Shown here piece by piece: positions 21,778 to 58,331 of a stretch of 64,000 bases of DNA. The notes beneath the pieces are model-generated. The model was not told the DNA's origin, searched no databases, and saw only the letters and a list, made by a program, of their open reading frames with translations. The DNA comes from an uncultured archaeon (GTDB lineage: Archaea; Thermoproteota; Nitrososphaeria; JACIWG01): assembly GCA_938034445.1 (NCBI GenBank), contig CALHLD010000024.1, positions 62,001-126,000 of the forward strand, in the 5' to 3' direction. The position numbers and the translations under genes were made by a program. The stretch's first letter is position 1; every line of letters begins with the position of its first letter.

Positions 21778-21831
21778 ATTATGCAATGGAATAAAATTTT
21801 AATATAGAGAGCTGTTTTTCCCTTTTGGTGT

Positions 21832-21926
21832 GGCCTCCGTGGTGTAGTGGTAGACACAATGGCCTGTGGAGCCGTTGGCTCGGGTTCGATAAATCTTCAA
21901 CAGGTTCGAAAATCCCGACGGAGGCC
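21832..21926 (+). tRNA. tRNA-His(GTG) with 22-nt intron in T-loop (intron 21891-21912)
   Basis: G-1 + GCCTCCG/CGGAGGC + C73; anticodon loop CTGTGGA; T stem TCGGG/CCCGA separated by 29 nt instead of 7; the extra 22 nt folds as a BHB. Confidence 0.93.
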
Positions 21927-34989: not shown

Positions 34990-35285
34990 GGGGGCATACG
35001 CTGGTGGACAGTTACGGAAGAAAATTCTGTGGAAACTCCTTCCTCCATGTGAGAGCGTGGCGCCGAGAGGCGCAACGGGAAACCGTTGGCAACGGAACAG
35101 AAACGCAACCAATCCTAGGTAGATGTCAATGATAAAAAATTGAGAATACCTAGGAATTGGGTGAAACGGCCGTCCCACGCGGAGCAAGACCAAACAGGGC
35201 GATGTGATCTCACTCGAAGCCCGGGTAGGTCGCATAGTCGAATGCTGTCAAAACAGAAGAAGGGTTACGGCCAGTGTATGCCCCT
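34990..35285 (+). ncRNA. rnpB: RNase P RNA
   Basis: P1 helix GGGGGCATACGCTGG/CCAGTGTATGCCCC; conserved GGAAACTCC, GGGTGAAACGGCCGTCCC, ACTCGAAGCCCGGGTAGG, ACAGAAGAAGGGTTACGGCC segments; T-rich 3' flank. Ends approximate. Confidence 0.93.
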
Positions 35286-58232: not shown

Positions 58233-58331
58233 CGCCGGGGAAGGGATTTGAACCCTTGCAACGGACAGGCCGTTACCGGCTTTCTTGTAAGATCTCGAGG
58301 CCGGCCCTTTTGACCACTCAGGCACCCCGGC
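58233..58331 (-). tRNA. tRNA-Ser(CGA) with 12-nt intron at 37/38 (intron 58282-58293)
   Basis: GCCGGGG/CCCCGGC acceptor, G73, anticodon stem CCGGC/GCCGG around CTCGAG-[ATCTTACAAGAA]-A, variable arm AACGG/CCGTT. Confidence 0.92.

Follow-up and report, generated by a model that had tools for sequence, protein, structure and literature searches.

The 22 nucleotides that interrupt the T-loop of the tRNA-His(GTG) gene in the window, the 64,000-nt stretch of archaeal DNA analysed here, are in our estimate (roughly 96% probability) a real bulge-helix-bulge (BHB) intron at the noncanonical position 59/60 of the single tRNA-His gene detected in the genome, probably spliced by an (αβ)2 EndA endonuclease together with the RtcB ligase. 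This reading is carried by the structure of the insert, by covariation among relatives, by the identity of the predicted spliced loop with that of intronless relatives, and by the presence of genes for both types of enzyme.

A single detected tRNA-His gene interrupted at position 59/60

The pre-tRNA-His(GTG) gene, running from G-1 to C73 with the intron included, lies at 21832-21926 on the forward strand of a window with a G+C content of 32%, and was delimited by ARAGORN, by direct reading and by a covariance model (R1), under which it scored 81.7 bits. It consists of a 5′ exon from G-1 to T59 (21832-21890, +), bounded by aligning the mature form with intronless relatives, the 22-nt intron AAATCTTCAACAGGTTCGAAAA between positions 59 and 60 (21891-21912, +), whose place is taken in relatives by inserts of other lengths or by 0 nt, and a 3′ exon from T60 to C73 (21913-21926, +), read from the sequence. 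ARAGORN called the gene as tRNA-His(gtg) despite its long T-loop, and the Rfam tRNA model gave it 20.9 bits, below the 29-bit cut-off. The GTG anticodon and the encoded G-1 opposite C73 identify it as tRNA-His, with an intact cloverleaf and an 8-bp acceptor stem that includes the His-specific G-1:C73 pair. A TATA-like box, TTTTAATATA, located about 26-35 nt upstream (21797-21806, +), may be the promoter from which the gene would be transcribed; congeners keep both this element and the linkage of the gene to SRP54.

Across the whole genome, 46 tRNAs scored above the Rfam cut-off, none of them another GTG tRNA according to the anticodons assigned by ARAGORN or, for the rest, read by eye, and a DNA search with the tRNA-His returned a single match. 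A second intact tRNA-His(GTG), raised in the first-pass annotation as a challenge to the intron, was thus looked for and not found in an assembly of 56 contigs (95% complete, 3.7% contamination), making a strong, if not absolute, case that the gene at 21832-21926 is the sole copy. Because histidine codons must be read, this copy is very probably functional, which in turn argues for removal of the insert. The incomplete assembly could hide another tRNA-His that does the work, with the gene in the window a pseudogene or damaged copy; however, the search detected no such gene, the cloverleaf, the G-1:C73 pair and the TATA-like element are all preserved, and congeners keep the same structure, so we regard a pseudogene as most improbable.

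Several other RNA genes were seen. Within the window, a tRNA-Ser(CGA) at 58233-58331 (-), called by Rfam and not by ARAGORN, has a canonical-site intron in the form of a short insert immediately 3′ of the anticodon, and a full-length RF00373 match marks an archaeal RNase P RNA at 34996-35279 (+). A CAT-anticodon tRNA (L037, G000:C24 around 146178-146249) is interrupted by noncanonical inserts twice, near position 8-9 and at 59/60, where its T-loop reads TTCGAA-ACCTCAGGCGAAAA-G, while a tRNA-Leu(TAA)-like gene (L047, G000:C11:59298-59369) has an extra D-arm stretch that looks like a noncanonical intron. Ahead of the 3′ part of an apparent tRNA-Trp (L049, G000:C24 around 197700) lie the motifs GATGATG and CTGA, which hint at the C/D-box guide intron that archaeal tRNA-Trp genes carry.

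Bulge-helix-bulge structure of the insert

The T-stem halves TCGGG (21880-21884, +) and CCCGA (21914-21918) are separated by 29 nt instead of the usual 7. Direct reading of the loop gives TTCG-ATA-AATCT-TCAAC-AGGTT-CGAA-AAT, exactly the parse of the first-pass annotation. The T-stem, whose first pair covaries between U-A and C-G, provides the outer helix, and TTCG (21885-21888, +) pairs with CGAA (21907-21910) in a 4-bp central helix that is 100% paired in 13 aligned genes. This helix is bordered by a 3-nt bulge on either strand, ATA (21889-21891, +) and AAT (21911-21913, +), and capped by the inner hairpin AATCT-TCAAC-AGGTT (21892-21906, +). By strict BHB geometry, cuts after the second base of each bulge (21890/21891 and 21912/21913) would release the 22 nt at 21891-21912 and leave TTCGATT. 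The mature T-arm obtained in this way aligns gap-free with that of intronless relatives.

When the 22 nt were shuffled, 2.75e-5 of trials produced a strict BHB with the 4-bp central helix in the register above and an inner helix of 5 bp or more; in random sequence the frequency was 2.2e-4. Folded alone, the T-arm adopted a stem-bulge-helix-bulge-helix arrangement, with A58 in the minimum-energy fold drawn into a 5-bp central helix, leaving TAA as the bulge and shifting the 5′ bulge by one base. The base opposite A58 is C in other families, where pairing with A58 is impossible; the 4-bp register is therefore the only one common to all relatives, and it also yields the standard 7-nt loop. The complete BHB with a 4-bp central helix put forward in the first-pass annotation is in this register.

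In the proposed pathway, the T-stem of the transcript would fold as the outer helix and TTCG/CGAA as the central helix, the α subunits of the (αβ)2 endonuclease would cleave each 3-nt bulge between its second and third bases, and RtcB would join the exons into a normal T-loop, TTCGATT.

Conservation and covariation in related genomes

We searched 61 related genomes at the DNA level for tRNA-His and found inserts at the same site in two congeners, in one other genus of the family and in further families of the class. The inserts measure 15-22 nt, and their interior sequences differ considerably. In families free of the insert, the T-loop is exactly TTCGATT (L065-L067, L090, L139-L144), the loop that the predicted cuts restore; together with the direct reading, these relatives bear out the earlier claim of a 22-nt intron at 59/60.

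Among the 13 aligned genes with same-site inserts, 95.8% of pair cells were standard pairs, compared with 26-65% in slid controls (maximum 64.5%), and the covariation score of 0.344 exceeded the mean of 0.159 obtained after shuffling. All four inner-helix pairs counted vary on both sides among these genes. In some relatives the inner helix is only ~2 bp, representing a relaxed motif there.

That ARAGORN accepts the gene with its long loop would also suit a tRNA-His that retains the insert and is used with an enlarged, structured T-arm. However, the aligned relatives differ in insert length but not in the geometry of the splice sites or in the loop that splicing would restore, TTCGATT, the intronless relatives have precisely this loop, and the contact between D-loop and T-loop, a general feature of tRNAs, would be lost, making retention very unlikely. 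An assembly or sequencing artefact, for which the fragmented assembly and some contamination might be held responsible, is already refuted by same-site inserts of different sequence in independent assemblies and in named records. An intron removed from the transcript thus remains our preferred reading.

A survey of further families with a covariance model and a pattern added T-loop inserts of 13-24 nt in families f13, f16, f18, f21 and f22, and one of about 36 nt in family f6 (L150). Anticodon-loop and T-loop inserts occur together in one gene in L141, L146 and L150, an anticodon-loop insert without a T-loop insert is found in L090 and L139-L144, and several families of the class have neither. 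We rejected the idea that the T-loop intron is unique to the genome or genus of the window, as it is present in eight families of the class. The nearest named matches to the tRNA-His loci of this genus and family are in the Nitrososphaeria MAGs JACIWG010000004.1, JARVJS010000027.1 and JARVJP010000009.1, and on this basis we assign the genome of the window to Nitrososphaeria.

Splicing machinery

The genome encodes two PF01974 proteins and a PF01139 RtcB. A check of the EndA subunit architecture, proposed in the first-pass annotation, revealed a separate catalytic α subunit and a degenerate, structural β subunit, the composition expected of an (αβ)2 enzyme. The α subunit (contig C4, 179 aa) best matches the crenarchaeal splicing endonucleases 3p1z/3ajv/2cv8 (E values of 1e-44 to 1e-41) and retains the catalytic triad of Tyr (FAVY), His (DHAPY) and Lys (VRKRF). 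The β subunit, which lacks the catalytic His, is encoded on the same contig as the tRNA-His gene (C24), outside the window. From this gene complement, EndA would assemble as an (αβ)2 heterotetramer, and the intron is probably removed by this enzyme and RtcB.

In the α subunit, the loop GIHKPKN aligns with K44-P45-R46 of the Aeropyrum enzyme and has the Crenarchaea-specific form, in which, beside the active site, Lys is followed by Pro/Val and a basic residue; this loop has been tied to broad specificity (PMC12397907). The broad-specificity endonuclease that the first-pass annotation deduced from the intron is thereby favoured by the α/β EndA with its K-P-K loop; a strict BHB alone does not require such an enzyme. 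KPK is kept in EndA α subunits from eleven families of the class, and the α/β pair with this loop occurs class-wide, including in genomes with an intronless tRNA-His; the enzyme therefore permits, and does not predict, the tRNA-His intron.

A long in-frame insert whose ends are intein-like (C-LSGDARVLT ... HNFVANNFVVSN-C) splits the RtcB gene (L265/L266, G000:C53:9515-12166; G001:C318), the frames being 934 and 978 aa long. This insert is also present in the genus-mate G001 and absent from G004.

Distribution across isotypes and archaeal phyla

Named records, one genome per species, were scanned with a tRNA-His-plus-insert pattern, giving 97 stretches and 80 loci listed, 48 of which were kept by a filter that required the T-stem and acceptor stem and excluded intact loops. 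One of these 48, L192, proved to be coding sequence and was dropped, leaving 47. Among the matches listed, at least 47 named records thus contain a T-loop insert in tRNA-His, and they span about ten archaeal phyla: Nitrososphaerota, Micrarchaeota, Hadarchaeota, Bathyarchaeota, Baldrarchaeota, Thermoplasmatota, Aenigmatarchaeota, Woesearchaeota, Hodarchaeota and Thermoproteota, together with a few unplaced archaea. As the scan pattern was biased towards the central helix and the 3′ bulge, these two elements are not independent evidence; the inner helix, on which the pattern did not select, had at least 2 bp in 32 of the 48 matches kept, with 6.6 expected after shuffling. The earlier statement that 59/60 introns occur mainly in Thermoproteales is accordingly too narrow, as they are found across the class and in several other phyla, and noncanonical introns of Thaumarchaeota have been published (PMC8450103, PMC4090602).

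With an isotype-neutral 59/60 pattern, 15 of 20 tRNA gene matches in the class sample were tRNA-His, these 15 being partly shared by descent and not 15 independent events. Confinement of the 59/60 intron to tRNA-His everywhere was rejected: the His bias belongs to the class sample only, and a 200-genome phylum sample has 59/60 inserts in other isotypes, most prominently the tRNA-Glu of the large family f3. In that family, tRNA-Glu(TTC) has a conserved ~15-nt insert at 59/60 (L342-L350) and tRNA-His is intronless.

On an SRP54 tree of the class, no fewer than 6 gains or losses are required to explain the intron (bootstrap range 5-7), although it is more clustered than expected from shuffling the labels, which gave as low a count in 9 of 500 cases; a single origin within the class is thus undecided. 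We speculate, as a tentative and rather unlikely possibility, that the 59/60 tRNA-His intron is an old element of fixed position, which many archaeal phyla either inherited or acquired anew several times. Within the class it would have been retained preferentially in tRNA-His, perhaps for a role in controlling T-loop modification or maturation of this G-1-bearing tRNA.

Comparison with known archaeal introns

The gene in the window adds a solid example, backed by covariation, of the noncanonical tRNA introns that general tools miss. Its Rfam score is below threshold and ARAGORN misses the tRNA-His copies of its closest relatives; annotation may therefore record tRNA-His as absent from genomes of this kind when it is present. 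The His bias within the class raises the evolutionary question of one old intron with losses versus repeated insertion at a favoured spot. The finding is of use mainly as an annotation warning and a small evolutionary lead. In the open-access literature we found no description of a 59/60 intron recurring in tRNA-His, or of a tRNA-His host in a Nitrososphaeria-type genome; an earlier description is possible.

Position 59/60 is in the list of noncanonical archaeal intron positions (Yoshihisa 2014, PMC4090602), and the intron described here shares the site, motif, size range and predicted processing of those introns, with no difference in kind. Noncanonical introns are numerous in Thaumarchaeota, for which tRNAscan-SE 2.0 uses a separate intron model (PMC8450103), and T-arm introns have been reported in Caldiarchaeum (PMC3293823); these are related archaea with introns of the same class. 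Family f3, with its intron in tRNA-Glu and its uninterrupted tRNA-His, differs in this respect from the genome of the window. The permuted tRNAs of Thermofilum, joined at 59/60 (Chan 2011, PMC3218864), share the T-loop junction and BHB-type processing; however, their gene order is permuted, whereas the tRNA-His gene of the window contains an ordinary cis intron, ordinary in kind and well supported.
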